Of a stretch of DNA of 44,990 bases, positions 2,740-44,690 are shown piece by piece. The position numbers were made by a program, and so were the translations under genes. Origin of the DNA: a virus. Every line of letters begins with the position of its first letter. Within the stretch, counting starts at the first letter, position 1. The notes below the pieces were generated by a model. It made no database searches, was not told the origin of the DNA, and worked only from the letters and a program-made list of their open reading frames with translations. The stretch covers positions 1 to 44,990 of IMG/VR virus record IMGVR_UViG_3300046501_000314. The stretch is one strand, 5' to 3'.

Positions 2740-2950
2740 CGCTATCCGCTTCCTCTGTTCGCATCGAAATTAAATCTGACGCGAATTTGCGGCGCTCGTT
2801 ATGAGCGTGCAAAGCACAGGTCTCCGATGGGCCGACCTCTTCAAGGATTCCTTGCAGCGCGGCGAGGAACGGAAGCGCTTCACGCTGACGGAAAATCCAG
2901 CGGACAGAGAGCCGGACATCCTCATCACTGAGCCGTGGGTGTTTGCGCAT
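2645..2950 (-). CDS. Bbp19-like small protein between portal and scaffold
   Basis: A protein of 101 residues. The ATG at 2950 has a perfect AGGAGG five bases upstream, and the gene overlaps the portal gene end by 26 bp and the scaffold gene start by 95 bp. The middle (RLSVRWIFRQREALPFLAAL, then HNERRKFASDLISM) matches the pattern of the Bbp19 family, small proteins encoded at this place in BPP-1-like phages: a helix, a short gap, then an (E/N)RR-x-hydrophobic segment. Function is unknown in the family as far as I know. The C-terminal 35 residues are very basic and lie in the overlap with the scaffold gene. Confidence 0.65.
   Translation of the reverse strand: MRKHPRLSDEDVRLSVRWIFRQREALPFLAALQGILEEVGPSETCALHAHNERRKFASDLISMRTEEADSDGSDKPDERKTTARPASAKPRKSRRHGPAGW
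2809..2820 (-). promoter_or_regulatory. Late motif copy 1 (CCTGTGCTTTGC)
   Basis: The minus strand reads CCTGTGCTTTGC, one of six copies of the same element in the late half. It lies inside the small gene 2645-2950 and 70 bp upstream of the scaffold start. A CAAATT hexamer follows 17 bases after the TTGCAC part. It could be a promoter serving scaffold and capsid. Confidence 0.5.
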
Positions 2951-4526
2951 TGCCGCCTCCTGAGACCTGCTGAGCAGCGCCAAGCACCTGCTGAACGAGC
3001 TTTTGCGCATCCTCCTTGGAGCGCAGCTTGATCACTTCATCTTTCACCAGCTTCTGCATCGCCTCGATTGTCGCCATCTCGTCGATGGCAGCCTGCGATG
3101 TCTGCGGGAAGAAGTTCTTGACCAGGCCGAGGAGCTGAGTGGCAATCTGCAGTTTCTGGTTATCCTGCGCCTGTGTCGCCGGATTGTTCGGCGTCAGCGT
3201 CAGGGGTTTGTTGTTGAATCTGACCTCTTGGATCTTGCTATCCGCCTTCAGCAGATATTCGAAGCGGCGATAGATCTCATACGGACCTTCACGCCAGAAC
3301 TTGGCGCCAGGCGTGCCGATACGGCGCTGCGCCCGAACCATCTCATCGGTCCACTGTGTCGCGGTCGGTGGCGTGTCGCCCTTCTGCTCTGGATAGTCGG
3401 CGAAGAACTTGCGCTTCACGCGGCGCTCAAGGTCGGTCGCGGTGTAGAAACCGATATCGGGGCTACCCATGAAGGCGAGCGACCCGAAGTCGTTGGCATT
3501 TCCGCCCGGCCGTTTCGCATATGCCCGGCCCGGCTCAAGACCGCTGTCGAAATTGACAACGCCATCGTCGGGATACCAGATAGGTGGGTTCAGCGCGACT
3601 TCGCAGGCGTCCTGCGTCGTCGCCGTGATGGTGTCGAGAACGCGCAATTCCTGAAGCGACTTGATCGCCGGCCCATTTCCCCAGGCATGCAGCTTGTCAG
3701 GCGAGAACCGGAACACGACGAGGGGAAGGCATCCTTCACCGACGAAGTGGTCATAGTGAACCTGTTTGTTGTCGACGAGGAGAACATGCACATACCGGTC
3801 ATCTTCCGGGAAATCCCAATTCCGCCAGAAGCACCAAACCACTTCAGCGCAATCATTCGGTTGGCGCTTGATCTTGTTTTCGACCGTCTGCGGCAACTTG
3901 ACATCTTTCCCGATGACAGACCGCAACGAACGGTATTTCACATGCCGAACCCGGAAACGGTCATCGATGCAGCCGTCGGGGCCGACGTTGATTTCTAACT
4001 CCTGAATTGGAACATGTTCAACCCTGTGGGGCCGGCCGGCGCCGGGAGCTGTGATCCAGAGCGCCATTGTGCCGATCGAAGCATCAGGATCCAAGGTTTC
4101 GGCGATCTCTGATCCAAAATTCGAACCATTGATGGCGGCGAAGATGGTGAGATCGTATTTCTCGATATCATCCTGAAGATCGGCGATATCGTCATCATCG
4201 GCGCCGTCGACGCGTGCCGCTTCACCAGAGGACGTGACCCAACGCTGACCGAGCGGAAAGAATGCGGCAATGACTTCCGTCGCGAAATCTTCGGAGACTT
4301 CGGCGCCGATGCCCGTTGCAAGCTCGTCGACATCGCGATCAAGCGTTGTCGTCGGCTTACTCATCGAGGAGACTTGTCGGGATAGCCGGGGGCGCGTGAA
4401 GAAATAGGCTTCGCGAAGGTCCTGCTCGACAACTGACTTCTGCGCCCTTGCATCGCCAAGACGCATGCATGCATCCTGAGAATACTCAGGCGCCTTTTCT
4501 TCCGGTTCTTGCTTGAGAGACGCCAA
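2925..4526 (-). CDS. Portal (head-tail connector) protein
   Basis: A protein of 533 residues, the usual length of T7-type and BPP-1-type podoviral portals (Head-tail_con family). It forms the dodecameric ring at the packaging vertex, docks the terminase and later the tail adaptor. The N-terminal region (EQDLREAYFFTRPRL; ELATGIGAEVSEDFATEVIA) and the acidic, Gln-rich C-terminus (residues 480-533) are typical. The start is TTG at 4526 with AAGGGG upstream, 12 bp after the previous stop; the next ATG (4466) would remove 20 residues. It follows the terminase and precedes scaffold and capsid. Confidence 0.9.
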   Translation of the reverse strand: MASLKQEPEEKAPEYSQDACMRLGDARAQKSVVEQDLREAYFFTRPRLSRQVSSMSKPTTTLDRDVDELATGIGAEVSEDFATEVIAAFFPLGQRWVTSSGEAARVDGADDDDIADLQDDIEKYDLTIFAAINGSNFGSEIAETLDPDASIGTMALWITAPGAGRPHRVEHVPIQELEINVGPDGCIDDRFRVRHVKYRSLRSVIGKDVKLPQTVENKIKRQPNDCAEVVWCFWRNWDFPEDDRYVHVLLVDNKQVHYDHFVGEGCLPLVVFRFSPDKLHAWGNGPAIKSLQELRVLDTITATTQDACEVALNPPIWYPDDGVVNFDSGLEPGRAYAKRPGGNANDFGSLAFMGSPDIGFYTATDLERRVKRKFFADYPEQKGDTPPTATQWTDEMVRAQRRIGTPGAKFWREGPYEIYRRFEYLLKADSKIQEVRFNNKPLTLTPNNPATQAQDNQKLQIATQLLGLVKNFFPQTSQAAIDEMATIEAMQKLVKDEVIKLRSKEDAQKLVQQVLGAAQQVSGGGNAQTPTAQ

Positions 4527-4537
4527 TGGCCGACCCC

Positions 4538-4690
4538 TTACGAGGTTGCGCCGGCAAGAGACTGCCGGGCGCCGAAGATTCGGACGGACTGGTTTGTCTT
4601 GTCGGCGATCTGGTCACGAATCGTATTGATGTTCTCAAGTTCGGACTGGCGCTCCTGGCGCTTCATCTCGTCGCTCTCTTGGGCTTTCAT
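4538..4690 (-). CDS. Small charged helical protein before portal
   Basis: A predicted 50-residue protein (MKAQESDEMKRQERQSELEN...) that is highly charged and probably a single coiled coil, ending RIFGARQSLAGATS. Small proteins with a similar ending directly precede the portal gene in many podoviruses of this type. The ATG at 4690 has GGTGG nine bases upstream; an ATG at 4699 is possible. It overlaps the end of the 4635-5129 gene by 56 bp. No function is assigned. Confidence 0.55.
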   Translation of the reverse strand: MKAQESDEMKRQERQSELENINTIRDQIADKTNQSVRIFGARQSLAGATS

Positions 4691-5129
4691 GCTTGTCATC
4701 CACCACGATCGATCCACCGTTGCACAGACATTGCCGAAGAAAGGCATCCGGCCGCAAAGCACAGCCGCCCAGCCCAAGCAGATGAGCGACCGACTGGACG
4801 CATGTGAAAACTGGTTTCAGCCGTAATCTCTTGTCGTGCAGATCAGGCGCCGGCATCCTGACCACGCATCCCGAAGAGCTGTAGAACCCGATGAGGCGAT
4901 CGGCCTGTTCATTGCTGACGGAAAGAATGCGGATACGGCCAGAGAGGAAGCTGAAGAAGGTCCAGTTGTTCGTTGCCTCGACATAGCCGAATGCGGACAC
5001 ATGCTTGTACCGGCCGAAACTCAGCCAGCGCGCCAACTTGATATCGCTGTCACGATGGAAGACGACAAACCACACCGACGGTTCGCAGCGCTCGATATCG
5101 AACCCATCATCCCGTTGATTAGAATCCAC
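4635..5129 (-). CDS. Conserved phage protein, possible permuted papain-like fold
   Basis: A protein of 164 residues starting with GTG at 5129, which overlaps the terL stop by 11 bp and has GAGG seven bases upstream. It contains a His in KHVSAFGYV and later a Cys in FTCVQSVAHLLGL followed by LRPDAFLRQCL. The order His then Cys before a helix resembles permuted NlpC/P60-like or LRAT-like proteins, and similar proteins occur beside terL in BPP-1-like phages. The catalytic reading is an inference from these two positions only. Confidence 0.7.
   Translation of the reverse strand: MDSNQRDDGFDIERCEPSVWFVVFHRDSDIKLARWLSFGRYKHVSAFGYVEATNNWTFFSFLSGRIRILSVSNEQADRLIGFYSSSGCVVRMPAPDLHDKRLRLKPVFTCVQSVAHLLGLGGCALRPDAFLRQCLCNGGSIVVDDKHESPRERRDEAPGAPVRT
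4754..4764 (-). promoter_or_regulatory. Late motif copy 2 (CTGTGCTTTGC)
   Basis: The minus strand reads CTGTGCTTTGC, the 11-base core of the late element but with G instead of the first C. It lies inside the 4635-5129 gene, about 65 bp upstream of the small gene 4690 and 230 bp upstream of portal. GCAATG follows with 17-base spacing. It is the weakest of the six copies. Confidence 0.4.
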
Positions 5130-6720
5130 CGCGCCGCCTCGATTTCGGTCTGAAGTTGATGGTCACCGGCTGGCCGTTCCCACCGGCATTTCGATCCCGG
5201 CCGATGGCCGCCCGGCCTTCACCGGCGCCGAGCACCATGTATTGGCAAGCATCCGCGATGTCGGAGTAGCGATCCTTGAACGGCTTATCGTCGTGCCGCG
5301 ACGTGCCCTTGATGCGCTTGAAGTGATAGCCGCCCTCGCAGGCTACCTTCAGCGTCCGGCAATTTACGCCGCAGACCAAGAAGCGCGGGCCGCCGTTGAC
5401 CATCGTGATCATGGCGTACTCGACCGCCTCGATGCGCGTCTGAATGTGATTGTTCTTCACGGGCGCGGCGCGAACCGGCATGCCAAAGGATGCGAAAATA
5501 TCATAGGCTGTGGTTTCGTCGGACTGCGTTCCGTCATCACCCTTCGGATCGCCAAAGAACTCAACCGAATAGCCTTCGCGCCCTTCGCGCCCGCGCGCCA
5601 CATGCCATTCACCAAGACGGCGATCGAGGAGCTGCTTGACCAGGGGTGCGAAGATCGAGGCGCCGACGCCGCGGCCCGCGATCTCGGCGAAGATCCGCCA
5701 GCGATTGTTGACCAACTGCCCGACCACACATGCGGGATTGCGCCCGAAGTCCAGCCCGACATAGACCGGCCAGCCAGGAATTGGCTCTAGCGCGGTTTTC
5801 GAAACATGGGAGTCGGAACTGAATTGCCCCCACACCGGTTTGCCATCGACGAACACCGTGATCTTGTTCAAGACGCGGCTATCGATCCATTGCTTCGTCT
5901 TGCCCTTGATCTTTTCCGCGTAATAGCCTGGCTTCAGCCATTTCGTGTTTTCCGCCAGCGGGTTCATACGATAGCCGGTCAGCATGCCGGCGGCGTCCTT
6001 GATTTCCAACATAGCCGGCGGCTGCACATGATACGCCCAGGTGTCCGGCCTTTGGAAAGACAGCCTTTCCTCTTCCGTCCAGTCTTCCGGCAAGGGGACC
6101 TCGCCCATCATCAGCGGAATGAAATGATCCTCACGCGGCGCGTTCATATCCGCCAGCACACCGTCCCACGTCGCCCCGCCGTCCTTCACTGCCGGATAAC
6201 GGCCGGTTCGGCTCTCGGCCTCATCCAAGATCGCCTTGTCGATGAATTCAAGCTCGTTGAACCAGATCCCGGTAAACTCGAACGATCGCAGCTTTCGAAT
6301 GTCGTCTTCGCTGTCGAGCGCCAGGAAGATGATTTCCATCTCCACATCGCCGATCCGGATCATGTGCCGGAAAGGCCGATCCCAATAGAACCGGCCATAC
6401 ATATTCTCGGGAAACCAATCGAGCCAGGATTTGACTGTCGTGTTCTTCAGATCGGGGAAGGTGTTGCGCACCACGGCCCAGCGCGTCTTGCGCACGCCGT
6501 CGCTGTTCGGTCGCTGCTCGCACGAGATCGACCACATCTTCATGATGCAGGCCGTCGACGTGCCCGACCCGATTGAGCCACGAATAATCGAAACGTGCTT
6601 CCGGCACTCAAGGAAATCCATGAGCACGGCGCCGTCCGGCTCATAGATCTTGCGCCCGGCCTCATCCAGTTCGATTTTTGGAAGATCCGGCGGCCGATCA
6701 GGCTCGATCACATCAAGCAT
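5119..6720 (-). CDS. terL: Terminase large subunit (ATPase and nuclease)
   Basis: A protein of 533 residues that cuts and pumps DNA into the prohead. The ATPase part shows a Walker A-like RGSIGSGTSTA (residues 47-57), with Thr54 in the place of the usual Lys, and a Walker B-like TGIWFNELEF with the catalytic Glu. The nuclease part has VYVGLDFGRNPA, then EFFGDPKGDDG and KDRYSDIADACQYM, giving the usual three acidic positions of the RNase H-like domain. The ATG at 6720 has GAGGT upstream and follows the previous stop by 2 bp. The family fits podoviral terminases of the BPP-1 type. Confidence 0.93.
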   Translation of the reverse strand: MLDVIEPDRPPDLPKIELDEAGRKIYEPDGAVLMDFLECRKHVSIIRGSIGSGTSTACIMKMWSISCEQRPNSDGVRKTRWAVVRNTFPDLKNTTVKSWLDWFPENMYGRFYWDRPFRHMIRIGDVEMEIIFLALDSEDDIRKLRSFEFTGIWFNELEFIDKAILDEAESRTGRYPAVKDGGATWDGVLADMNAPREDHFIPLMMGEVPLPEDWTEEERLSFQRPDTWAYHVQPPAMLEIKDAAGMLTGYRMNPLAENTKWLKPGYYAEKIKGKTKQWIDSRVLNKITVFVDGKPVWGQFSSDSHVSKTALEPIPGWPVYVGLDFGRNPACVVGQLVNNRWRIFAEIAGRGVGASIFAPLVKQLLDRRLGEWHVARGREGREGYSVEFFGDPKGDDGTQSDETTAYDIFASFGMPVRAAPVKNNHIQTRIEAVEYAMITMVNGGPRFLVCGVNCRTLKVACEGGYHFKRIKGTSRHDDKPFKDRYSDIADACQYMVLGAGEGRAAIGRDRNAGGNGQPVTINFRPKSRRRGGF

Positions 6721-7220: not shown

Positions 7221-7766
7221 TCAATCGTCATCAGGAACGCCCTCCAATGCACTCAATGGGATAGCGTCTTCAACGTCCAGATGCTCTATCTGCTGGCGTC
7301 GTTCGTCCTTGCTGCGATCAATGCGGATGACATAGCCAGGCGTCACGCTGAGCGTGTTGTTCACCTGCACGTTGACCTGTGTTGCGCCGACCTGATGCGC
7401 TCCCCTGTCCATGCCGTCGATGTACTTGGCTGCATCGAGGCGGACACGGTCGCTGTCGGCCTTATCCATCAGCTCGCCTATGCGGTTCAGCGCCCGAGGA
7501 CGCATGCTTGTCCGCAACATCTCTTGTTGAGCATTAAGATAAGCAAGGACGTATGGCTTAGTGAAAGCGACGCGGAGCGCTTCGTCCGACATTCCAGCGA
7601 CTTTCGCTGCTTCGGACCGCTTCAGGCCCTCGAACACCATTGCATGGATTGCAATGCGTTGTTTCGGGGTCGCGCGGGGCGCTTTTTTTTCTTTCTTGAT
7701 GAGAGCGGCGGCTTTTTGCGCCTGAGCGCTGAGTGCCTGCACTGACTGCTTGGAGGGGAAGGCCAT
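7221..7766 (-). CDS. terS: Terminase small subunit
   Basis: A protein of 181 residues, first gene of the late minus-strand operon. Residues 32-85 hold an HTH (TPKQRIAIHAMVFEGLKRSE, AAKVAGMSDEALR, then AFTKPYVLAYL), as in small terminases that recognise the packaging site and load the large subunit. The middle (RIGELMDKADSDRVRLDAAKY) is a helix pair typical for oligomerisation, and the tail is acidic. The start at 7766 has GGAAAG upstream. A late promoter motif lies about 100 bp upstream (7863). Confidence 0.8.
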   Translation of the reverse strand: MAFPSKQSVQALSAQAQKAAALIKKEKKAPRATPKQRIAIHAMVFEGLKRSEAAKVAGMSDEALRVAFTKPYVLAYLNAQQEMLRTSMRPRALNRIGELMDKADSDRVRLDAAKYIDGMDRGAHQVGATQVNVQVNNTLSVTPGYVIRIDRSKDERRQQIEHLDVEDAIPLSALEGVPDDD

Positions 7767-7862: not shown

Positions 7863-7874
7863 TCAAAGCACAGG
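7863..7874 (-). promoter_or_regulatory. Late motif copy 3 and candidate terS promoter
   Basis: The minus strand reads CCTGTGCTTTGA followed by CA, so this copy also contains a full -35-like TTGACA. CTACAG follows with 17-base spacing. It is the only copy with GA in place of GC at the end. It lies 97 bp upstream of terS and would start the packaging and head transcript. Confidence 0.6.
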
Positions 7875-8971: not shown

Positions 8972-9535
8972 ATGGCTCGCACATCAGCAGGACAGCTTTC
9001 ATTCAGTTTCGATCCTCCCGCCGCATTACTCGCGGCGAAGCCATATGAGCCGCCGCCGAGGCGAGATTTCACGACGCGCGCCTATGGTTCGGAATATGTG
9101 ATGAAGATCGGCCTTGATGAGCTTGATCCTATAGAGATTGAGGTACGCGGCATCCCGACGCTGATCCTATTCAGCTTCGGTTGGCAGACATACACAGTGC
9201 AACCGGCGGGTTCCGCTTATTGGTCTGAGACAGGCTTTCGAAGCTTTGGCGGCCCACAGACCGACCCTGACGAGATAGCGGCCATGATCGCCGCCCATAT
9301 CGACAGCAAGCACGGCTGCAAAGGCAAACTCACAAAATGGTGGCCGAGCTACTGCCTTCATTGGCGGCAGGACAAGAGGTTTGAGAAGAGGTTTGAGCGT
9401 TCGACCACCTGGGACCAATGGGGGCCGGAAAAGCAGAAGGAGCATTGGGATCGGTTCGACGCACGTAACGCGGCGGCGCTTGAGCGCATGGCTGTGGATG
9501 GCATCGACCCGGAGGAAGTATGGAAAACGCGGTGA
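8972..9535 (+). CDS. Hypothetical protein of 187 residues
   Basis: The N-terminus is basic and Pro-rich (PYEPPPRRDFTTRAYGSEY); the centre contains a beta-rich part (IEIEVRGIPTLILFSFG), and the C-terminal part is rich in Trp, Arg and Lys (KWWPSYCLHWRQDKRF; TTWDQWGPEKQKEHWDRF). It is predicted to be soluble. The ATG at 8972 has GAGGG upstream, and the end overlaps the next gene by 16 bp. I do not recognise the family. Confidence 0.7.
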   Translation: MARTSAGQLSFSFDPPAALLAAKPYEPPPRRDFTTRAYGSEYVMKIGLDELDPIEIEVRGIPTLILFSFGWQTYTVQPAGSAYWSETGFRSFGGPQTDPDEIAAMIAAHIDSKHGCKGKLTKWWPSYCLHWRQDKRFEKRFERSTTWDQWGPEKQKEHWDRFDARNAAALERMAVDGIDPEEVWKTR

Positions 9536-9885
9536 CCATGGACAGCCAACCCGAAAATCTGCATGGTGCCGCGATTGCCAGCCCGCAGGAAACACTTATG
9601 GAACGACCAGACGACGACGCCCCGGAGCACGAGAAATGCAAATGGTGGCGGACTGAGGTCGTATCGCTGTCACGCGAGCAGTTGGCACCCCTGATAGGCT
9701 TCAGTGCTGCGGCAATCAAAGACTTCGAGCGCGCGAACAAGGCTGTCGATCCCATGGCCCGCAAGCGGTACATGATGGCGTGCGCGGCGTTATCGATCGG
9801 TGTGAACTTCAATTGGTTCGAAACGTCGTTGATGCTCTCGCGCCCGGTCGAGATCACGATGAAGATGGAGGCGAAGGGCAAATGA
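9520..9885 (+). CDS. Xre-type HTH protein
   Basis: A protein of 121 residues. After an acidic, unordered N-terminus of about 45 residues, positions 49-95 match an Xre/Cro-type HTH: LSREQLAPLIGFSAAAIKDF followed by ERANKAVDPMARKRY. The pattern of Gln-Leu-Ala, Ile-Gly-Phe and the recognition helix SAAAIKDFE is clear. It is likely a transcription regulator; targets could be the palindromes upstream of this operon (7935-8027), which is an inference. The start has GGAGG upstream and the stop overlaps the next start (ATGA). Confidence 0.7.
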   Translation: MENAVTMDSQPENLHGAAIASPQETLMERPDDDAPEHEKCKWWRTEVVSLSREQLAPLIGFSAAAIKDFERANKAVDPMARKRYMMACAALSIGVNFNWFETSLMLSRPVEITMKMEAKGK

Positions 9886-10088
9886 GCGAGTATGTCACCG
9901 TCTTCAATTTCACATTCGAAGTTGAGCGCATTGGAGAAGAAACATTCGTCATAGAGCGCCAAGCAGGTACGCCCGGCTACAAGCGCTATGGGCCGATGCC
10001 GAGGGATATGACCGGTCCGTTCATTGATGAGCTGAAAGAAGCGATCACCGACAATCTGAGCCGAGCAACGGAACCAAAGTCCCCATGA
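9882..10088 (+). CDS. Small hypothetical protein
   Basis: A 68-residue protein (MSEYVTVFNFTFEVERIGEE...), predicted to form a beta sheet in the first half and a helix (PFIDELKEAITDNLSRA) in the second. It is coupled to both neighbours by ATGA overlaps, which supports it as real. No family recognised. Confidence 0.7.
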   Translation: MSEYVTVFNFTFEVERIGEETFVIERQAGTPGYKRYGPMPRDMTGPFIDELKEAITDNLSRATEPKSP

Positions 10089-10279
10089 GCACCCGCATCT
10101 ACGTCGGCTCCATCGTCCGCGCCAAGATCAGCCGATCACCCTCGATGCTGGTCACAAAGCTGCACCTGCATAACGATGATCTGGAATTTGCCGAGCTGCT
10201 ATGGTTCGACGCGAACATGAATGCTCGCCAACTCACCCTGGACACGTCGCTGCTTGAGCATGTGCCGACGCAGGATTAA
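10085..10279 (+). CDS. Small hypothetical protein, last gene of plus operon
   Basis: A 64-residue beta-rich protein (MSTRIYVGSIVRAKISRSPS...), perhaps a small barrel, with an ATGA overlap to the gene upstream. It ends convergently with the minus-strand regulator: the two stop codons share the palindrome TTAA at 10276-10279, leaving no terminator space between the operons. Confidence 0.65.
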   Translation: MSTRIYVGSIVRAKISRSPSMLVTKLHLHNDDLEFAELLWFDANMNARQLTLDTSLLEHVPTQD

Positions 10280-10782
10280 GCCTCGGATTTCTGCTTTCCT
10301 TTGCGCTGCCGGCGCGGCAGATCGACGAGAATAATCCCGACCTTGAGCGCACCAAGCCAGAGCGGAAACACTTCCGGCCCCATGCCGCGCCCGTAGGACT
10401 GCCGCCAGTTCTCAAGCTTGTTCGTATAGCCCTCCTGCATGCCTGATCGGGCGTCCAACTCGATGCAGGACAGCTTTAGCGCATCGCGCCTGGCGACCAG
10501 CGCGTCGACCAGCTCGTCATAGTTCTGGATCATACTGGACACGACATCGTAGCCCAGCGCCTTTTCGGTCCCAACCTCGACCCTATGGCCGCTCTGTTCG
10601 AAATCCCACTGATCAACCTCAGACAGCGCGAAATGACGCTTTCCGACGATGTGCCGAGGAGCGGGGAAACCCCGGCCCTTGATCCAGCGATCCAGCGTGG
10701 CGCGGGATATGCCGTATCGAGCCAGCACCTCTTTGGCCGAGATGTAGATTTCAGCTTTCTTGAGGTTGACTATGTGTCTCAT
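10276..10782 (-). CDS. Two-domain regulator: AlpA/MerR-like HTH plus C-terminal HTH-like domain
   Basis: A protein of 168 residues. Residues 12-60 match an AlpA or excisionase-type winged HTH: YISAKEVLARYGISRATLDR, a GRGFPAPRHI wing and a VDQWDFEQ end. After a linker helix, residues 103-153 (LSCIELDARSGMQEGYTNKL, then GMGPEVFPLWLGALKVGIIL) resemble a small HTH domain seen in rhizobial phage proteins (LDxxAGLxxGYTxKL). The tail is very basic (RRQRKGKQK). It is the last gene of the leftward operon and probably a regulator. The fusion of two DNA-binding types is unusual. Confidence 0.7.
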   Translation of the reverse strand: MRHIVNLKKAEIYISAKEVLARYGISRATLDRWIKGRGFPAPRHIVGKRHFALSEVDQWDFEQSGHRVEVGTEKALGYDVVSSMIQNYDELVDALVARRDALKLSCIELDARSGMQEGYTNKLENWRQSYGRGMGPEVFPLWLGALKVGIILVDLPRRQRKGKQKSEA

Positions 10783-12025: not shown

Positions 12026-12391
12026 TCACACCTCTTCCAGCTTGCGGCTCTTGTAAGCCTTGTATTTCCGCTTCCGAAACGCCTGCATGCCGGGCGCAAG
12101 GACCGTGACCAGATTGCCGCCGGTAACGACGTAGATGGCATCGCGCGTGATGATCTTGGCCTTCTGGCTTGAGCGCGTCTGCATGGCCTTCAGGACCGGC
12201 TCTATGAGCATGGAGAGGCGAACGGCATCCACCGGCAGGCCAGCACGCTCGCAGGCAATCTGAGCCTTGCCGTAATCGTTCAGGTGATCGCAGCCGACCA
12301 ACCATTCATCCACCGGCAGACCGAGCACGCGTTCGAGATAGCGGATGACGGAATGGTGTGAGACGCGGAGGAGCACAGATTGATCAAGCAT
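12026..12391 (-). CDS. Conserved rhizobial phage protein
   Basis: A protein of 121 residues. The start (SHHSVIRYLERVLGLPVDEW) and the end (AKIITRDAIYVVTGGNLVTV then LAPGMQAFRKRKYKAYKSRK) follow a pattern I associate with rhizobial prophage proteins: an N-terminal SxHAVxRYLERV helix and a C-terminal beta hairpin ending in a basic tail. It lies directly upstream of the initiator gene (3-bp gap) and overlaps the HTH gene by 8 bp. The function is not known to me; a nucleic acid-binding role is only suggested by the tail. Confidence 0.7.
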   Translation of the reverse strand: MLDQSVLLRVSHHSVIRYLERVLGLPVDEWLVGCDHLNDYGKAQIACERAGLPVDAVRLSMLIEPVLKAMQTRSSQKAKIITRDAIYVVTGGNLVTVLAPGMQAFRKRKYKAYKSRKLEEV

Positions 12392-12626: not shown

Positions 12627-12952
12627 GCGACCACCTCGGGCGTGCGAGAGGGGTTGAGCAGCTTCCTGAAGATCGAGATATCCGTCTTGCGCTTTTCGAG
12701 CGGGCGGAAATGAGCATCACCCCAGCCGATATTTCCGCCTAGCGTGCAGCCGTCCTTGTGGTCGACCTGAAACTCGTCGATCTCTTCAAATTTGAGGTAC
12801 ACGCCATCTCCGGCGGCGCTGACAGACTTGATCGTCAGAACCTCGTTGAGCATGGGAACGCGCGTCGGAATGCTGCAGGGTCCGATGCTCCAATATCCCC
12901 AATCGTCATTGATGCAGACGCACTGCACGCCGGGAGCTGCCCAGGTATTCAT
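12623..12952 (-). CDS. Conserved hypothetical protein (SH3-like barrel suggested)
   Basis: A 109-residue protein starting at 12952, where the ATG overlaps the upstream stop (ATGA) and has GGGAGG seven bases away. The beta-rich body (VLTIKSVSAAGDGVYLKFEE) is followed by WGDAHFRPLEKRKTDISIFR, an ending shared by many small rhizobial prophage proteins. The fold reading is tentative and the function unknown. Confidence 0.75.
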   Translation of the reverse strand: MNTWAAPGVQCVCINDDWGYWSIGPCSIPTRVPMLNEVLTIKSVSAAGDGVYLKFEEIDEFQVDHKDGCTLGGNIGWGDAHFRPLEKRKTDISIFRKLLNPSRTPEVVA

Positions 12953-13470
12953 ACATGAACCTCCCGACCAATGAACCGCGGGCCGCCGACGTGCTGGGCG
13001 TGGAAGCGGTACCAGGCGCAATCATCCTTGCCGCTCATCGTCGTGCCGGGGATCCAGCGAAGACGGCCAACGGCAACGATATGGCTGCATTGATCGATGA
13101 ACGGGGCCGACTGCCGCGTGTGTGCCCACGCCGCGTCAAACAGCAGCCACGTCGGCGCCATGACCTGAAAGCGTGCGATCATCGCGTGGAGAATGTCGCG
13201 CTTCCACGGCACGTTGCTGATGATCGCATCGAAAGTGGCATCCTCATCGAAGGGATGCACAAGCGCATCATAGCCAGTCGTGATATCGCCCTCGTAGGCG
13301 CAGACGAGGCCGGCAGCCTGCAAAGCACCGACAAGATAGCCGTCGCCGGCACAAGGCTCGGCAAACGTCTTGATGCCGCGTAGACGCGGCAGGAGCATCT
13401 CAACCGCGCGGGGGTCTATGGTCTGGTAAGCATCGCGCTCTATGCGCTCGAAGGATGACCGTTTTCCCAT
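12949..13470 (-). CDS. Methyltransferase-like protein (N6-adenine type, variant motif)
   Basis: A 173-residue protein from the ATG at 13470, which overlaps the GcrA stop (TGATG). Residues around 35-50 (IKTFAEPCAGDGYLVGAL) form a SAM-binding motif I, and ATFDAIISNVPWKRDILHAM holds a motif IV-like SNVPW in the place of the usual NPPW. The second half (APTWLLFDAAWAHTRQSAPF) is typical of small phage methyltransferase-like proteins of rhizobia. It may methylate DNA; with Val in the NPPW position, activity is uncertain. It lies next to GcrA, a protein that in its hosts reads N6-methylated DNA. Confidence 0.7.
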   Translation of the reverse strand: MGKRSSFERIERDAYQTIDPRAVEMLLPRLRGIKTFAEPCAGDGYLVGALQAAGLVCAYEGDITTGYDALVHPFDEDATFDAIISNVPWKRDILHAMIARFQVMAPTWLLFDAAWAHTRQSAPFIDQCSHIVAVGRLRWIPGTTMSGKDDCAWYRFHAQHVGGPRFIGREVHV

Positions 13471-13967
13471 CAGGCCGCCCTCTCCAATGCGCTCGCAGCC
13501 TTGCGCTCGCTCTCTGTGCCTCTGCCCATGGCGAGCCGAGCATGATACGGGCACCACGACTTGCCCTCGACGACATCGTGACCGCAAAACGTGATGTCGG
13601 CCCGCTCACCTTCCGGCCAGCGGCATTCACGAACGAAATCGGAAAGCTCCAAAAGCTTCAGACCGAGCGAGACAGGCTTGGGAATAGTCTCGACGACCGG
13701 CGGCGGTGCGCGGTCCATGAACTCTTGCAGTTCGGAGATCTTGACCGGGTCGGGCTTTGCCTTGCGGCTGCGAGGTGCGCGGACGATAGGCTCTCGCTTC
13801 AGGATTACCTTGCTGTGGCCCAGCTTCAGGCCGAGCCGTGTAGCCTTGCCGATCACGGCGTTACGGCTGACACCGTCGAGCTTCGCCGCGATCTCCGAGG
13901 CGCTATGACCTTCGGCAACCAGGCGCTTGAGCAACGATATGGATTCATCAGACCATGCGAAATTCAT
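13470..13967 (-). CDS. gcrA: GcrA-family transcription regulator
   Basis: A 165-residue protein. The N-terminus (MNFAWSDESISLLKRLVAEG; SASEIAAKLDGVSRNAVIGK; ATRLGL) is the GcrA DNA-binding domain, and the C-terminus (LLELSDFVRECRWPEGE; FCGHDVVEGKSWCPYHARLA) is the Cys/His-containing domain that contacts sigma70 in Caulobacter GcrA. Middle residues are basic and then Pro-rich. The ATG at 13967 has GAGGG five bases upstream. GcrA is a cell cycle regulator restricted mainly to Alphaproteobacteria, where it activates promoters containing methylated GANTC. The phage copy could redirect host sigma70, for example to late promoters. Confidence 0.9.
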   Translation of the reverse strand: MNFAWSDESISLLKRLVAEGHSASEIAAKLDGVSRNAVIGKATRLGLKLGHSKVILKREPIVRAPRSRKAKPDPVKISELQEFMDRAPPPVVETIPKPVSLGLKLLELSDFVRECRWPEGERADITFCGHDVVEGKSWCPYHARLAMGRGTESERKAASALERAA

Positions 13968-13975
13968 TTGAGCCC

Positions 13976-14422
13976 TCACAAAGCAATGACGGGCGCCGGC
14001 ACGCCTTCGAGGCTGATCACCTCGACGACAAGCCCGGCTTTTGCCCCGAGAATTTTCCAGCAGGATGAGAACGACACCTGCGCGTCATCGGCGTAGGCGA
14101 TCTGGTTCAGTGCATCCTTGACGATCTTGGTGATGTTGTCGGCGTCTGGCTTGGTGATCTTCCACCCGCCATCGATGGCGTTGAGACGCGCTTTCGTGGT
14201 CGACTTCGGCCAGAGGTAGACGGCAGCTATCTTGAGCTGTAGCGGCCCGACCAGAGGGCCGGGGAACACCGCCATTTGCCGATGAGCTTCGGCGCGGATC
14301 ATGCCCATATAGTCCCGCTGCCGCTTGGGCGTGAACTTGACGACGGTCTTGCCGCCGCCGGCACGCGCCCAGGGAACGACATCGCCGGGAATGATGAATT
14401 TGATCCGCGCCGCAACCGTCAT
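13976..14422 (-). CDS. rusA: RusA-family Holliday junction resolvase
   Basis: A protein of 148 residues. The core motif KPDADNITKIVKDALNQIAY followed by ADDAQV (residues 91-116) carries the conserved acidic residues (Asp93, Asp95, Asp103, Asp112/113) and Lys of the RusA family, which cuts four-way DNA junctions as a dimer. The N-terminus (IKFIIPGDVVPWARA) also fits. It is expected to resolve recombination or replication intermediates before packaging, together with the RecE/Sak4 genes of the other operon. It follows the upstream stop by 2 bp. Confidence 0.9.
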   Translation of the reverse strand: MTVAARIKFIIPGDVVPWARAGGGKTVVKFTPKRQRDYMGMIRAEAHRQMAVFPGPLVGPLQLKIAAVYLWPKSTTKARLNAIDGGWKITKPDADNITKIVKDALNQIAYADDAQVSFSSCWKILGAKAGLVVEVISLEGVPAPVIAL

Positions 14423-15139: not shown

Positions 15140-15321
15140 CAGCGATCACCCATGATGTCGGTATGGCGGTGGGTGATCGGTGCGCCATCATTGCCGCGCA
15201 GAGGGCCAGCCTTCTTGCGGCGGCGGATCAGCACACGGATACCGGCATCCTTGCAGACGACCGAGAGACGGTAGAACCAGCTCGACAACTGCAGCAGGCG
15301 GTCAGCAACGAAATCTCGCAT
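15139..15321 (-). CDS. Small basic protein
   Basis: A 60-residue protein (MRDFVADRLLQLSSWFYRLS...) with an amphipathic N-terminal helix and a basic region (IRVLIRRRKKAGPLRGN). Start at 15321 overlaps the upstream stop (TAATG) and has GGAGG eight bases away. It is part of the leftward early operon. No family recognised. Confidence 0.65.
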   Translation of the reverse strand: MRDFVADRLLQLSSWFYRLSVVCKDAGIRVLIRRRKKAGPLRGNDGAPITHRHTDIMGDR

Positions 15322-15695
15322 TACTTCATCCTCCCTTTGATCTTTTCGAGCTGGTCGCGATGCCAATCGAGCTTCGCTTCAAGCTCCGCGATCTGAACGC
15401 CGCGTTCGAATTCCTTCCACCAGCGCGTGCCTGAGCCTTCCATGATCGATTGCAGCAGCTCAAAACCGGCGTCAGAGCGCAGCAGGTTCACAAGAGCGTC
15501 GGCGCCCGGTTCGGTGCGGCCTTCGAGCCACAGTTCAGCGGCGCGCTTCGAGATCTCGGCACGGCTGGATAGATTGATGGCGGTTTTTGAAGGCCAGAGA
15601 CGGCGAGCCATATCGCAAACCGCGTCGACAGGCCGAATCCGCTTACGGTTCCTGCTGAATCCAGACGCGGCAAAGAAAGACGATTGTGCGGACAT
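15321..15695 (-). CDS. HTH-like phage regulator with C-terminal coiled coil
   Basis: A protein of 124 residues. PVDAVCDMARRLWPSKTAIN followed by LSSRAEISKRAAELWLEGRT is an HTH-like region common in rhizobial prophage proteins that follow cro. A conserved WWKEF motif precedes a coiled coil (IAELEAKLDWHRDQLEKIKG). It could be a CII-type or accessory regulator, an inference from its place as the second gene after Cro. It is coupled to cro by TGATG and has GAGGT upstream. Confidence 0.7.
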   Translation of the reverse strand: MSAQSSFFAASGFSRNRKRIRPVDAVCDMARRLWPSKTAINLSSRAEISKRAAELWLEGRTEPGADALVNLLRSDAGFELLQSIMEGSGTRWWKEFERGVQIAELEAKLDWHRDQLEKIKGRMK

Positions 15696-26800: not shown

Positions 26801-26978
26801 CGGTGATGTTCCTTTCCTTAAGCTGATTGAAGATGGCTTTCGTCTGCGCCGCTGCGCCGGCCGCCGTGCCATCGGAGTGGCCCTTGATGTAGACCCCGCC
26901 GATAATGGCGAGGACAGCAGCGACAACTAGCAGCGAGAGCCAGTTCTTCTTGATGAAATACAGGATGACGGCGATCAC
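26721..26978 (-). CDS. Inner-membrane spanin (Rz-like)
   Basis: An 85-residue protein starting with GTG at 26978, which overlaps the endolysin stop (GTGA). The N-terminal anchor (ILYFIKKNWLSLLVVAAVLA) is followed by a periplasmic helix (GTAAGAAAQTKAIFNQLKER) and an end rich in Cys (LCRAIGGVWGDDRCQ). It is shorter than coliphage Rz but has the same design and the nested Rz1-like gene. Confidence 0.72.
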   Translation of the reverse strand: MIAVILYFIKKNWLSLLVVAAVLAIIGGVYIKGHSDGTAAGAAAQTKAIFNQLKERNITDEKVQSMSDPELCRAIGGVWGDDRCQ

Positions 26979-27736
26979 AGCGCCTTGCCTTTGTTGACCG
27001 AGAAGCGGCCGGACAGGAACATGTAGCCGATACCACAGGCCGCCAGCAGCAGCACGAGCATGAATACCAGCGAGTAGAGGTTGTTGATGCCTGTAAGCGC
27101 AGGCAGGGCGATACCGGCCGCTGCGGGCGCCGCTGTGGAGAGAAGCGCCATGGCCGACTGTGTGGCCGGCTTGTCGTCTGGCTTCGCGTCCTCGCTGTCG
27201 ACTGAGGCGATCTGAGCCGTGTCCTGCGATGCGTTGATGGCATCGAGGAAGTTCTTGTAGTAGCCGGCGATGAGTTGCGCCTTGTCCGTACCGTTGATGA
27301 TCTTCCGCGCGCCGACCGGATCGTCGATCGTCACGCCGAAGTAATCGGACAGCCTCTTGCCGGTGAACATGCCCTGCAGCATTCCATCGAAGAGCGCGCG
27401 AAGGGCAATCGGCCAGGTCATGAGCTGACCGGGAGCCGTAGCGCCGAACTTGCGCGCATTCTTTTCCCAGGTGACCTGCACAAGGCCTTCTCCGACCCAC
27501 GGATAATAGGCCTTGCCCTTCAGGTACTTTTCGCCGCCATCTTCACGAACCGGCTGCATTTTGCCACCAGTCTCATGAAAGACCGTCGCCAGCATATAGG
27601 CGAGGAAACGAACATCGTTGAGCGCGCGCCGATCCCATTCGTCAAGGATCTTGGTCAGTCCATCGACCTGAGATTGCCAGAGGCTACCTCCAAAGGGCGC
27701 CTTGCGGACGAATGCGAAAAAGGTCGTGCGGTTCAT
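26975..27736 (-). CDS. Endolysin, GH19-like, with C-terminal membrane anchor
   Basis: A protein of 253 residues. Residues 40-100 (FLAYMLATVFHETGGKMQPV, REDGGEKYL, YYPWVGEGLVQVTWEKNARK) match the GH19 chitinase-like lysozymes of phages, with Glu55 as the likely catalytic acid. Residues 170-215 are a Ser/Ala/Asp-rich linker, and 219-242 (LYSLVFMLVLLLAACGIGYM) form a membrane helix with a basic end. There is no N-terminal signal. The ATG at 27736 was chosen because GGAG is eight bases away; ATG 27742 is too close. It heads the lysis cluster and follows a late motif. Confidence 0.85.
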   Translation of the reverse strand: MNRTTFFAFVRKAPFGGSLWQSQVDGLTKILDEWDRRALNDVRFLAYMLATVFHETGGKMQPVREDGGEKYLKGKAYYPWVGEGLVQVTWEKNARKFGATAPGQLMTWPIALRALFDGMLQGMFTGKRLSDYFGVTIDDPVGARKIINGTDKAQLIAGYYKNFLDAINASQDTAQIASVDSEDAKPDDKPATQSAMALLSTAAPAAAGIALPALTGINNLYSLVFMLVLLLAACGIGYMFLSGRFSVNKGKAL

Positions 27737-27789: not shown

Positions 27790-27801
27790 GCAAAGCACAG
27801 G
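27790..27801 (-). promoter_or_regulatory. Late motif copy 4, lysis gene promoter candidate
   Basis: The minus strand reads CCTGTGCTTTGCGG, with GATTAT 17 bases after TTGCGG. Spacer and GATTATC match the copy at 30372. It lies 54 bp upstream of the endolysin start. Confidence 0.6.
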
Positions 27802-28122: not shown

Positions 28123-30354
28123 CTACCCGGTCTTCACCCTTGCGAAACACGCGACTTGCATGGTGATGCCGGCGCCGGCGGCGACGACAACTCGAAACTC
28201 TCCGATGATTTGTGACGATGACACAGCGGACACCATGAGGCCGGAAATTTGCAGATTTCCATCCAGAGTGCCACGGACCAAGTTTAGATTGACATCGGCA
28301 ACGCTTGGAGTGAATGCCAGATTGTGATTGAAAGTAAAAGTTTTTCGCCCAGTCGTGGAAACATCGATCGACGCTGACAGCACCAAATGCTGTTCCGTAC
28401 GGAGGCCGCTGACATTGCTGATCGTCGCGATGCCATCAACGTCGTTGACGTTCGTGCCGTTGCCAGTGCAAGATCCGCCGATGATCCGGATCGCCGTCGA
28501 TCCTGTTCGTATGTCATAACCGATACCGGTATTGCTGCGGACATCGCAGCCGATGAAGCTGACTTCATCGACGCTATCGACGATGATGCCGGCCTGGACG
28601 TTGCTTCTGCTCTCCAGGCCAACATAGGTATTGGTGTCGGCTTCAAAACCTGCGGAAGCATCCTGCCAAAGACGGTAGCCGACAGCATTCGCCTCGGCAA
28701 CACAGTTCGATATACGTACATCTGGCGCAGTGATAGAATATCCGTCACCGCCAATCCCCTGGACCTTTCCCAGCACGACTTGCGCATAGCGGGTGATAAC
28801 ACGGACGCCTTGAGTGTTGGCAATGTTGGTGCCGGTGACCTTGAAATCTTTCAGCGTCGAGACCTGATAGGGCACCTCGCCGGCAACGCCGACCTGCATA
28901 CGGATCCCGACCGTTGCCATCGGCCCCATGCCTTTGACATGAATGTTGCTCGCTGTAACGCCAGAACGAAGATCAAGACCGGCCTGTCCCGTCAGCAATC
29001 CAGTCGCAAGACCAAAATTTTCAATATCGATCTCGTCTGCCACATTGCCGTGGCCGGTCGCGGTATCGTCCTTCCAGTCGATCGCGTCGGCACCGGTATT
29101 GTAGCACTTGACGCGCCTAATAGAGCAGTTGATCAGGGCGTCACGCTGCATGCCGATCGCATAATACTGGCAATCATGGATATACATGTCGTGGATGTGC
29201 ACGCGGGAACAATTGCTAGAAACGGTGATGCCGGACCAATGATTTGTGTCGTCATCCGGGAGCGGAACGTTGTCACGATTTCCATCGATCTCGATATCGC
29301 TGATAATGACATCGTCGACGAGGACAATCGTTTCGACACGCTGACCGACCTGAATGACATCAGCGCTCTCACCGTCGGCGAGCTTCAGGATAGTGCCGCC
29401 GGCCCCGCGAATTCTCACATGGTTGTGCCCAATATAGATCGCCCGGAAGTTCGCCCAACTGCCGGCGCCTGGATTGGTATTCCTAAGAAGCGCAGTTCCC
29501 TGTCCGAGGAGGACCGTGCCGCCACCCCTGTAACCGACGTAGCTCAACGCAGCATTGATCGCTGGAGAGCAATTCGTGACGCCATCGAGCTTGGCGCCGA
29601 TGCTCTCAGCGCGCACGGTTGAGCTTGCGGGCTGCCACCAGGCACCGTCGGCGGACTGCCATTTCATGTCGTGAGGCGGTTCGCTCGCCACCCAACTCCA
29701 GACTTCAAGACCACCATCACCGGCCTGGTCATATCCAGCTGTTACGATGCTGCGGTAGGACGGCGGAATAACCGCGAGCTTGGCGCCGCCAAGCGTATCG
29801 AAATAGGCGGTACTGACAGAATGCGTAGCGGCTATAAGCGCCCGCAGGGCGTTGTCGCCGGCGATCCGCTGGCTCTGTTCCGTCGAGTCAGCAGCGATCC
29901 GCGCCGATGTCTCGGCGGATAAAGCCACGGCGAGCGCGGCATCGCCGGTCTCTCGATCTGTGATTTCGGTATTGAGATCGTCTCGCAGTTCGCCGATATC
30001 TCGACGCGCCTCTTGATTTTCGATTTCGAGGCGGTTGAGCGCATAGTTGAAATTAGAGATCGGCAAAGGAGCGCCGTTGTTGAACTGATCAGTTCGCGCC
30101 GGCGCGCGCATACCATAGATCACGACATTCCCGATCACGCCGGAATTCATGATCACGGCGGCATTCGTCGAAACACCGTCAACATAGGTCGCGGTTACCG
30201 TATAGTCTGTGCGCGGTACATCGTTGATGACCACCAAAAGATCAGCGTTGGCGAACAGGGGGAAGTTGACCGCAAAGGTCGTCGTGGAGACGACGGGGTC
30301 GTAGGTCGTTTTGCGAAGTGAGGGCGTGATCGTAACCATGGCCGGGATAATCAT
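28123..30354 (-). CDS. Tail spike with parallel beta-helix domain
   Basis: A protein of 743 residues. Residues 1-115 are the virion-attachment domain of podoviral spikes and fibres (FPLFANADLLVVINDVPRTD; VVIYGMRAPARTDQFNNGA). Residues 115-185 are coiled coil (RLEIENQEARRDIGELRDDL; ETSARIAADSTEQSQRIAGD). Residues 240-640 are a pectate lyase-like beta helix with repeated hydrophobic strands and Asn ladders (DVIISDIEIDGNRDN; VHIHDMYIHDCQYYAIG). The last 90 residues form a separate tip. It likely binds and cleaves host surface polysaccharide. The start may be ATG 30354 or 30339. Confidence 0.87.
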   Translation of the reverse strand: MIIPAMVTITPSLRKTTYDPVVSTTTFAVNFPLFANADLLVVINDVPRTDYTVTATYVDGVSTNAAVIMNSGVIGNVVIYGMRAPARTDQFNNGAPLPISNFNYALNRLEIENQEARRDIGELRDDLNTEITDRETGDAALAVALSAETSARIAADSTEQSQRIAGDNALRALIAATHSVSTAYFDTLGGAKLAVIPPSYRSIVTAGYDQAGDGGLEVWSWVASEPPHDMKWQSADGAWWQPASSTVRAESIGAKLDGVTNCSPAINAALSYVGYRGGGTVLLGQGTALLRNTNPGAGSWANFRAIYIGHNHVRIRGAGGTILKLADGESADVIQVGQRVETIVLVDDVIISDIEIDGNRDNVPLPDDDTNHWSGITVSSNCSRVHIHDMYIHDCQYYAIGMQRDALINCSIRRVKCYNTGADAIDWKDDTATGHGNVADEIDIENFGLATGLLTGQAGLDLRSGVTASNIHVKGMGPMATVGIRMQVGVAGEVPYQVSTLKDFKVTGTNIANTQGVRVITRYAQVVLGKVQGIGGDGYSITAPDVRISNCVAEANAVGYRLWQDASAGFEADTNTYVGLESRSNVQAGIIVDSVDEVSFIGCDVRSNTGIGYDIRTGSTAIRIIGGSCTGNGTNVNDVDGIATISNVSGLRTEQHLVLSASIDVSTTGRKTFTFNHNLAFTPSVADVNLNLVRGTLDGNLQISGLMVSAVSSSQIIGEFRVVVAAGAGITMQVACFARVKTG

Positions 30355-30371: not shown

Positions 30372-30383
30372 GCAAAGCACAGG
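30372..30383 (-). promoter_or_regulatory. Late motif copy 5, tail spike promoter candidate
   Basis: The minus strand reads CCTGTGCTTTGCGG with GATTAT 17 bases after TTGCGG, the same as the endolysin copy. That GATTAT overlaps the ATG at 30354, so if this is the promoter, translation would start at the ATG at 30339. Confidence 0.6.
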
Positions 30384-41526: not shown

Positions 41527-41529
41527 GTT

Positions 41530-41937: not shown

Positions 41938-44060
41938 TAGACCGTGATCTCCGTTGTCAGTTCGAGGAGCTTGAACTCCCCTGGAAAGGTTTGCTCGAAG
42001 AAGAGTTGCGGGTCGAAGTCTCGGCCGAGGACACGGATCGTGTATGTGTCGGATCGCAACGGCATCGGAGCCGCGAAGTCATCACCGCCGACATAGCCGG
42101 CAAGGAGACGGCTCCCCATCTGGAATTCCTGGGTATCCTCAACTCGCGCAGCCGCGCGCACAATCCGCCGGCGGCGCAGGTTTTGCTTATAGTCACTGCC
42201 GCCTTCCGTCTGTTGGAACAGCGGAGACAACGTCCAGATGAACAGGTATCCGACGATCACATTCGTGAAGCCTCCGATACCCGGAACCGCCCCACCAGCG
42301 CCAATAACAGCATCGCCAAGATAGAAGCCATCAGCCCATATCTGCATGGTGGCGCCAGCAAAGGCGCCCGGAATATTTCCGCCGACCGCAGCAAGCGCAC
42401 AATCCGGCTTCATCGCGGAATCGTTCTCCTCGACAACGGAGATGGACCCGGCACCAACTGGATAGATCGTCAGAAACTTCGCCTCGTCGAAGCGAGTGCA
42501 GACATCCTTCACGATGCCCTGGCCGGTATGCTTGAGCCAGCCGACATATTGCCGAGCAACATTGTATTGTCCGAGCACGACGCTGCCGTCACCGTTCACC
42601 ACATAGATCTGCCGGCTTGCGTTTTGCGGCGTCCCCGCATTCGATCCGATGGCAACGATGTCGTTGAAGAGGTGACGATGTCCCTCTGTCAGTTCGGTGA
42701 CCTGATACGGGCGTGCCTGCGCTCCGGTGGCGTTAATGGCATAGATGCCAGTGCCGGACTCATCGACGAACAGAGCGCCTTCGGTAACCTGCACCGGCTT
42801 CACCGCAGAGATCCGGCCAGAGTAGAGAAGATTGAATTCGACAGATCCGGGTTGCAACGGAGCCGTGCCAGATACCGGGATATAGAAGACGCCGCTGTCG
42901 GTGATCGCGAACTCATCATAGCCGCCGACCACATGGAGAACCCGGCAGTCCGCTTGCAGATACTCGAAGATCGCGCTTTCCGCATCATCGGCGCTGATCA
43001 AATAGTTCAACGGGTCGTCGATCGCAGACCAAATGATCGCCGCCTTGAACTGCGGGAAGTCGCAAAAAATGATCCGGTTGTCATCGACAGCGACAGACTG
43101 CGGCCATCCGCGAAAGTCCGACATGAAGATCTCGGTCCATTGCGTCGTCGCACCTGGTGAAACGATCGTCATGGATTCCGTGTTGGCATCAGCGTTCGGG
43201 CCGACAAGGCGATCCGACGGATCACGCTGGCGATACTGGTTGAGAACGACACCTGTGATCGTCAAGCCGACGATGTCGATCCCGATGATTTCGATCTGAA
43301 CCCCGGAAACACTGGTTTGCGCGAGTTCGCCAATGGTGAAGCCCTCAAGTTCCGTGGCATCGGCGAAGACATATCGGATAGTAGGCGCCAGGCGCTCCAA
43401 CGCCGTCGCTGTCGCCGTCGTCGACGAGGTCACCGTATCGATCTGCAATTGCCGGCCGGCATATTCGAAAATGGTCCAGACATGGGCGGCATTGAGCACG
43501 GCGGCCGAGAACGTCACATTGATCCCGGCGCCGCTGGTGGCGCTGACCTGCATCGTCACGCCCTTGTTGCCGAACCGGAAGAACGGAGCCTCATAGGTTC
43601 CGGAAAGTTTGCGATCAAACTGGAAATTTGAAATCGTCCAGGCCCGCGTATTCTCGTTGACCGTGACGACCTGTGTCCGCATGCCAGGACCGCAGACGAA
43701 AATCAGGTTTTCATAGAAACCCCAAACGAGCCGCGACAGAATGGCGGATGACCATGGCGCGCCCAACGTTGCAAGGATCGCATGGCTCTCGTCTCGCACG
43801 GTGAGATAACCATTTCCGAAGCTCAGAAAATATCTAAGACCATCATGGAATGGCTGAAACTCGTCAGTGCGGCCGGCTTCTGGAAACAGCATGCGACGGC
43901 CGAAGCGCCGCTGAAGCGCGCCCGATGGAGTCGTTTGCAGGTTCCGAGCAAGCCGAACGCCGAATTTGAAGATGTCCAGATCATCGCGGCGGATGGAATC
44001 CGGATCAATCTCACCAGCCGAGAAATCACGCTGGCGGATAACCATCGTGTTGAAACTCAT
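41937..44060 (-). CDS. Tail nozzle (tubular protein B-like)
   Basis: A protein of 707 residues, beta-rich throughout. The N-terminus (MVIRQRDFSAGEIDPDSIRR; FKFGVRLARNLQTTPSGALQ; RRFGRRM) is typical of podoviral tail stabilisation or nozzle proteins of the BPP-1 and N4-like kind, and GWPQSVAVDDNRIIFCDFPQ is the characteristic internal block. It forms the distal tail tube through which DNA leaves. It overlaps the adaptor gene by 4 bp. Confidence 0.83.
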   Translation of the reverse strand: MSFNTMVIRQRDFSAGEIDPDSIRRDDLDIFKFGVRLARNLQTTPSGALQRRFGRRMLFPEAGRTDEFQPFHDGLRYFLSFGNGYLTVRDESHAILATLGAPWSSAILSRLVWGFYENLIFVCGPGMRTQVVTVNENTRAWTISNFQFDRKLSGTYEAPFFRFGNKGVTMQVSATSGAGINVTFSAAVLNAAHVWTIFEYAGRQLQIDTVTSSTTATATALERLAPTIRYVFADATELEGFTIGELAQTSVSGVQIEIIGIDIVGLTITGVVLNQYRQRDPSDRLVGPNADANTESMTIVSPGATTQWTEIFMSDFRGWPQSVAVDDNRIIFCDFPQFKAAIIWSAIDDPLNYLISADDAESAIFEYLQADCRVLHVVGGYDEFAITDSGVFYIPVSGTAPLQPGSVEFNLLYSGRISAVKPVQVTEGALFVDESGTGIYAINATGAQARPYQVTELTEGHRHLFNDIVAIGSNAGTPQNASRQIYVVNGDGSVVLGQYNVARQYVGWLKHTGQGIVKDVCTRFDEAKFLTIYPVGAGSISVVEENDSAMKPDCALAAVGGNIPGAFAGATMQIWADGFYLGDAVIGAGGAVPGIGGFTNVIVGYLFIWTLSPLFQQTEGGSDYKQNLRRRRIVRAAARVEDTQEFQMGSRLLAGYVGGDDFAAPMPLRSDTYTIRVLGRDFDPQLFFEQTFPGEFKLLELTTEITV

Positions 44061-44647
44061 CCTCGCCTCGTGCGCCGCGCCATGGCGACCTTTGATTTGT
44101 AGATGTTGCGGGCCGGGTTCTGTTGGTCGAGATGCGCGCGTGTCTCGATGATCAGATCCTTGGCGGCCTGATCCCTGACGCGGGCTTCCGTCATGTCTTC
44201 ATTGAGACCGCGAAGGCATCCCGACTCCACCATCAGCGTGAGGACTTCCTCAGCCATAGGGTGCCAGTTCGCCTGATCGAGCTCGCGAACGACCTTGGCG
44301 GAAATGCCATCCGAATGCCGCGAGCTCAGAATGAAACCGATGATCTCGTATTCCGTGAGCGGGCAATTGTTGTGGTAGATTTCCTTGACGTGCAGCACCT
44401 GCGGCGGCGACGGGATGCGGAAACCATTCTGTGGAAATCGGCGGGAAAGGTTCTCCGCATCCGGCACACGGACAAGGTTTTCGACCGTCACCGAGAACGG
44501 CCATGCGTGCATCGAGATCAGGAATTTGATCGCCCGGTCGAAGGCTGCATCCGCGACCTGATATTCTGCCGACGGATCATGCAGAATGTTCACGCGGGCA
44601 TTCCCGGTGTTGATCAGCGCATTGTTGATGACGGTCAGCTTATCCAT
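44057..44647 (-). CDS. Tail adaptor (tubular protein A-like)
   Basis: A protein of 196 residues. LTVINNALINTGNARVN and FDRAIKFLISMHAWPFSVTV at the N-terminus, with the Trp in HAWPF, are hallmarks of the T7 gp11-type adaptor family that joins portal to nozzle. It is the first gene of the tail and ejection operon and follows the terminator at 44691 and late motif copy 6 at 44679. Confidence 0.85.
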   Translation of the reverse strand: MDKLTVINNALINTGNARVNILHDPSAEYQVADAAFDRAIKFLISMHAWPFSVTVENLVRVPDAENLSRRFPQNGFRIPSPPQVLHVKEIYHNNCPLTEYEIIGFILSSRHSDGISAKVVRELDQANWHPMAEEVLTLMVESGCLRGLNEDMTEARVRDQAAKDLIIETRAHLDQQNPARNIYKSKVAMARRTRRG

Positions 44648-44678
44648 GCGCCGAATGTGTCGGAAGCGAAGACCCCCG

Positions 44679-44690
44679 GCAAAGCACAGG
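44679..44690 (-). promoter_or_regulatory. Late motif copy 6, tail operon promoter candidate
   Basis: The minus strand reads CCTGTGCTTTGCCG, with CACATT 17 bases after TTGCCG. It lies directly after the terminator that ends the head operon and 32 bp upstream of the adaptor start, the clearest promoter context of the six copies. Confidence 0.65.

Follow-up and report, generated by a model that had tools for sequence, protein, structure and literature searches.

A putative late promoter class marked by a conserved box in epsilon15-like temperate podophages of Rhizobiales

What is the function of a short DNA element that recurs ahead of the virion and lysis genes of a phage genome, and which protein reads it? 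The 44,990-nt stretch of virus record IMGVR_UViG_3300046501_000314 (the window, in whose numbering all positions are given) raises this question, and an initial annotation had seen in its repeated element a phage late promoter class with an extended -35 element, perhaps activated by the encoded GcrA. The window phage encodes an integrase and a CI-like repressor and can be classed as a temperate phage that is epsilon15-like by its gp7-type major capsid protein, which scores above the NF045672 cut-off. The two ends of the window (1-80 and 44911-44990) share a repetitive stretch, so that the record may be circularly permuted.

From the sequence comparisons described below, we consider it quite probable that TGTGCTTTGC forms the recognition site for a class of late promoters in epsilon15-like temperate podophages of Rhizobiales and is read by an early phage protein together with the sigma-70 polymerase of the host. 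The box would span about -41 to -32 and include the TTG of the -35 element, the host polymerase would use its housekeeping sigma to read a degenerate -10, and an early phage protein would bind the box and make up for the weak -35 and -10. At least six late units would be switched on together in this way.

The box in the window and in related phages

The 10-mer CTGTGCTTTG has six exact copies in the window (2810-2819, 4755-4764, 7864-7873, 27791-27800, 30373-30382 and 44680-44689), all on the minus strand, which is the late strand. Only 0.07 copies are expected on both strands of the window, and none of 100 dinucleotide shuffles contained six. The initial annotation was right about the six minus-strand copies and their sites, with every position one too low, but not in counting five identical 12-mers: the complete 12-mer is present in four of the six copies (at 7873 the final base is A, not C), while CCTGTGCTTTG is common to five, the exception being 4755-4765 with G as its first base. 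No exact CTGTGCTTTG was found on the plus strand or in the early genes of the window, and the single copy with one mismatch, at 13330(-), lies within a coding region. As had been described, GATTAT follows TTGCGG after 17 bases at the 27800 and 30382 copies, and the other four sites show weaker -10-like hexamers at that spacing, namely CACATT (44689), CAAATT (2819), GCAATG (4764) and CTACAG (7873). A scan with the 14-mer TACCTGTGCTTTGC returned 119 stretches, by rough estimate mostly chance matches, and was uninformative. The boxes and the genes that they precede are as follows.

44680-44690, minus: putative late box P-adaptor; -10-like CACATT at 44659-44654; predicted +1 at the A of the adaptor ATG (44647), predicted leaderless
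44691-44728, minus: intrinsic terminator (CCCCGAGG..CCTCGGGG TTTTT) immediately before P-adaptor, closes the capsid transcription unit
30373-30383, minus: putative late box P-tail spike; -10 GATTAT at 30352-30347; likely ATG 30339, predicted leaderless
27791-27801, minus: putative late box P-lysis; -10 GATTAT at 27770-27765, followed by a short GGAG-containing leader and a likely ATG close to 27736
7864-7874, minus: putative late box P-terS, TTTGACA variant; -10-like CTACAG at 7843-7838; terS ATG at 7766
4755-4765, minus: putative late box P-portal, within the upstream coding sequence 4635-5129 (codons TGT GCT TTG); -10-like GCAATG at 4734-4729
2810-2820, minus: putative late box P-scaffold, within the coding sequence 2645-3010 (codons TGT GCT TTG); -10-like CAAATT at 2789-2784
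44057-44647, minus: tail adaptor, phrog_394; predicted leaderless
28123-30339, minus: tail spike; predicted leaderless
26975-27736, minus: endolysin, phrog_181; predicted to be served by P-lysis
7221-7766, minus: terminase small subunit (terS); predicted to be served by P-terS
2925-4526, minus: portal-type head-tail protein, phrog_332 (labelled head-tail adaptor)
862-1806, minus: major capsid protein, epsilon15 gp7 family (NCBIfam NF045672, 136 bits vs cut-off 75)

The general layout, with copies upstream of terS, scaffold, endolysin, tail spike and adaptor, is thus as initially annotated, except that the 4764 copy precedes the portal gene by ca. 240 bases, with a 50-aa ORF in between (the first downstream ORF starts at about 4690), and that the copies at 4764 and 2819 sit within coding sequences conserved in relatives.

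A virion protein query, a pattern scan and a candidate-regulator query together yielded more than 30 related records, including loci in public genomes of Rhizobium sp. Leaf453, Gellertiella hungarica, a Rhizobiales isolate and a MAG labelled Arenimonas; their sites were collected through a motif match, which makes the invariance of the box partly a matter of construction. The search of related phages that the initial annotation had proposed found the box at matching places in these records, that is, before terS, portal, scaffold, adaptor, tail spike and lysis genes, and relatives often carry one further box between terS and terL. Nearly all have both the portal and the scaffold copy, with the portal copy being absent from G021 and G024. 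Ten phages of the first set contain 38 exact copies on one strand per phage, against no match to the reversed pattern in the same viral records, and the later sets likewise keep to one strand per phage with few exceptions.

Had the element no link to late genes, it might be equally frequent in the early genes of relatives; of the 195 sites whose second position is T or A, 185 are on the late strand. Among the remaining ten, four precede a small XRE gene that faces the other way, and in G017, G018 and G024 the distance is a short 97-108 bases, so that the gene may share this control in these phages. Confinement to the late strand holds for the window but not for these three relatives, each with one opposite-strand copy.

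Candidate readers of the box

One relative points to a reader acting in trans. In seven of its eight boxes, G029 carries A in place of the T at position 2 (AGTGCTTTGC), compared to 11 of 177 elsewhere (Fisher p = 1.8e-7, with the caveat that ancestry makes sites of the same phage partly dependent). Such a coordinated T-to-A change is the trace that a shifted reader would leave, implying a presumptive trans-acting factor. The early region offers the following candidates or their neighbors.

10276-10782, minus: two-HTH protein of 168 aa, candidate activator; flanked by the replication genes and the late block
13470-13979, minus: GcrA-family protein (Pfam GcrA 2.2e-32; NF050816 78 bits, under its 280-bit cut-off)
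9520-9885, plus: small XRE-type HTH gene, opposite in strand to the late genes; preceded in three relatives by an opposite-strand box
12949-13587, minus: methyltransferase, phrog_799; adjoins gcrA

The early genes present in all 27 complete relatives, whose completeness was judged partly by the presence of GcrA, are 15321-15695, 12026-12391 and those of the methyltransferase, GcrA and the two-HTH protein. Our leading candidate for the reader is the two-HTH protein, with about as much to be said for it as against it. Its N-terminal part resembles a MerR/excisionase-like winged HTH and its C-terminal domain reads as an XRE-type HTH, in agreement with an AlphaFold model (mean pLDDT 77; elements 13-64 and 88-146), while Foldseek gave nothing below E = 0.001 (best 0.029, a MerR-type winged HTH). 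The C-terminal helix region SGMQEGY..KLEN is nearly invariant among relatives. We favor this protein over GcrA because it is kept together with the box in three reduced elements (described below) in which no GcrA was detected. Against it, G019 has an intact box, but its version of the candidate is reduced to a short and divergent XRE form, and the C-terminal recognition helix of G029 is unchanged in spite of the shifted box. Dimeric binding to dyad sites is common among XRE-type proteins, and the asymmetry of the box counts against a reader of this type. Two other genes were rejected: the XRE protein 9520-9885 has no homologue that we could find in G031, which carries the box, and 15321-15695 has a homologue in phage Mwe-JY08, which is without it. 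Judged by conservation, the plus-strand ORF 9520-9885 is itself the gene at this place, and the longer minus-strand ORF 9330-9962 is spurious.

GcrA is known to require methylated GANTC in the promoter (PMC7987155). Like the Caulobacter GcrA/CcrM promoters, those described here would use sigma-70 and the phage encodes a GcrA homologue, but GANTC is depleted around the boxes (0.29 per kb vs 1.71 per kb in these genomes) and present at only three sites. Activation by GcrA in its known way is therefore not supported, and GcrA was also not found in the three box-bearing reduced elements. We regard it as rather unlikely that the phage GcrA drives the late promoters as a sigma-70 cofactor in some other way, with the box read by GcrA itself or by a GcrA-helped sigma region 4. 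GcrA is indeed a sigma-70 cofactor, and a prophage operon of Brevundimonas subvibrioides is expressed in a GcrA-dependent manner (PMC7987155); it occurs in 27 of 27 complete relatives (a set partly defined by it), and neither box nor GcrA turned up in Mwe-JY08, whose capsid, TerL and portal proteins are homologous and whose XRE protein is diverged. Besides the scarcity of GANTC, this reading has to face that most phage GcrA proteins have diverged to 30-72% identity while the box stayed fixed and that satellite-like elements have the box with no GcrA found, though host GcrA could serve there. A part for phage GcrA as a GANTC-independent partner or alternative reader is a tentative possibility. 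Across the whole window, GANTC occurs 72 times, by rough estimate about half of what base composition predicts.

Could the reader be a factor of the host? A long conserved upstream block followed by a degenerate -10 can mark an alternative sigma factor, yet we think it very unlikely that such a factor or a host activator reads the box. In four lysogen genomes, the extended pattern was found in the prophage copies and in one single match, leaving the host genes without it, and 13 out of 200 genomes of one bacterial family had matches, mostly single and scattered, with multiple copies only where the prophage is. A host reader also fits poorly with the joint shift of the G029 boxes. The box is apparently not used by rhizobial host genes, and its reader is probably encoded by the phage, given that host genomes lack multi-copy use outside the prophage. 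Among the matches, G184 has two GATTATC-type copies close together, and its genome also carries the two-HTH gene.

Promoter anatomy and predicted leaderless mRNAs

For alignment of the sites, position 1 was set to the base preceding TGTGCTTTGC, usually a C. In a profile confined to the box and its close surroundings, averaged over seven site classes, A reaches 0.76 at position 32 and T 0.72 at position 36, which we read as the -11A and -7T of a sigma-70 -10 at a 17-bp spacing from the TTG of the box as -35. This degenerate -10 starts 20 bases past CTGTGCTTTG, with fixed spacing and a weak match to the consensus that is particularly poor in the terS and portal classes, and a generic sigma-70 scan did not pick up these promoters, as expected from such a weak -10. 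The terS-class sites also have a TCGCGCG-like conserved stretch after the -10 region, at about positions 37-46 from the start of the box.

We expect transcription to begin near position 43. In 27 of 27 adaptor sites the first ATG lies at position 43-44, in 31 of 33 spike sites at 43-45, and based on this coincidence with the predicted start the adaptor and tail spike mRNAs should be leaderless. The start codon of the spike gene in the window is likely ATG 30339 rather than ATG 30354, which overlaps the -10. All 27 adaptor sites are preceded by an intrinsic terminator (median -21 kcal/mol), compared to 1.4% of random positions. A scan for the box combined with a leaderless start gave four matches.

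The location of the box just upstream of late genes, on their coding strand, would also suit an element that works at the RNA level, within the 5' leaders of late transcripts. The -10 at fixed spacing, the ATG at the predicted +1 and the terminator ending directly upstream of the adaptor copies all argue for promoter DNA instead, making a leader element highly improbable. Together with the relatives and the layout, the -10 signal, the ATG offset and the terminator support the late promoter class with an extended -35 element that had been proposed initially.

At the portal and scaffold copies, the box is written in the codons TGT (or AGT) GCT TTG at 26 and 29 sites, respectively, a count biased by the collection of sites through box match; usage of TGT, GCT and TTG within their codon sets is 0.147, 0.137 and 0.087, and the flanking synonymous positions vary. 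That the repeats arose by chance or are maintained by protein coding, as the conserved C-A-L residues at the two of six copies within genes might suggest, is refuted by the shuffles, the retention of rare synonymous codons and the layout in relatives, where the other four site classes recur before the same genes without such coding conservation, and has next to no probability left.

Known phage switches and satellite-like elements

The MotA box of T4 has its centre at -30 and is separated by 12±1 bp from an excellent -10 (PMC2988021). Like T4 middle promoters, which depend on sigma appropriation by MotA/AsiA, those described here would combine a short asymmetric box with the letters TGCTT(t), a phase-specific gene set and a sigma-70 -10, but here 20 bp separate the 10-mer, which overlies the -35, from a -10 of poor quality. 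No MotA Pfam match was found among the early proteins scanned, and the resemblance is likely convergent. In phage lambda, the early-to-late switch is made by the phage protein Q at one antiterminated late promoter; the window phage is likewise temperate and would likewise use a phage protein for its late switch, though at six or more separate late promoters. Phage P2 and its satellite P4 turn on several late promoters together with a small activator, Ogr/Delta, of which the satellite has its own, and P2 late promoters use a dyad near -55 and this activator, a zinc-finger protein. The present system shares the several late units and satellite-like elements with a gene for the putative activator, here the two-HTH gene. 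It differs in having one asymmetric box over the -35 and an HTH protein as candidate, and the early proteins scanned gave no Ogr/Delta match.

Our literature search found no paper describing the box. We predict that the late promoter class is real and ordinary in kind, undescribed in the literature found, and unusual in its leaderless output. The model makes the late switch testable in a family of temperate podophages of plant-associated Alphaproteobacteria, and our searches turned up no earlier description of a late promoter in this family. According to the model, two virion genes would be read from leaderless mRNAs, and the box can serve as a DNA signature in searches for such prophages and perhaps satellites.

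The three reduced elements G026 (L309-L310; the same element as G009), G032 (L293) and G043 (L294) keep the box and the two-HTH gene and also carry an integrase, a tail spike and genes similar to xis and terS. In these elements no homologues of terL, portal, capsid or GcrA were found by our searches, nor did the rest of the G026 genome give a TerL match; alternatively, they may be remnants or incomplete contigs. It is conceivable, though doubtful, that the two-HTH protein founds a new family of late activators with an asymmetric box over the -35 and that satellites with the box, a copy of the activator, terS and spike tap the late programme of a helper, an arrangement like that of P4 and Delta but reached independently. 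The late boxes of the reduced elements lie before the spike and before the two-HTH operon, which consists of a coiled-coil-like ORF, the two-HTH gene and the xis-like gene, and G032 and G043 additionally share a replication-initiator-like ORF.
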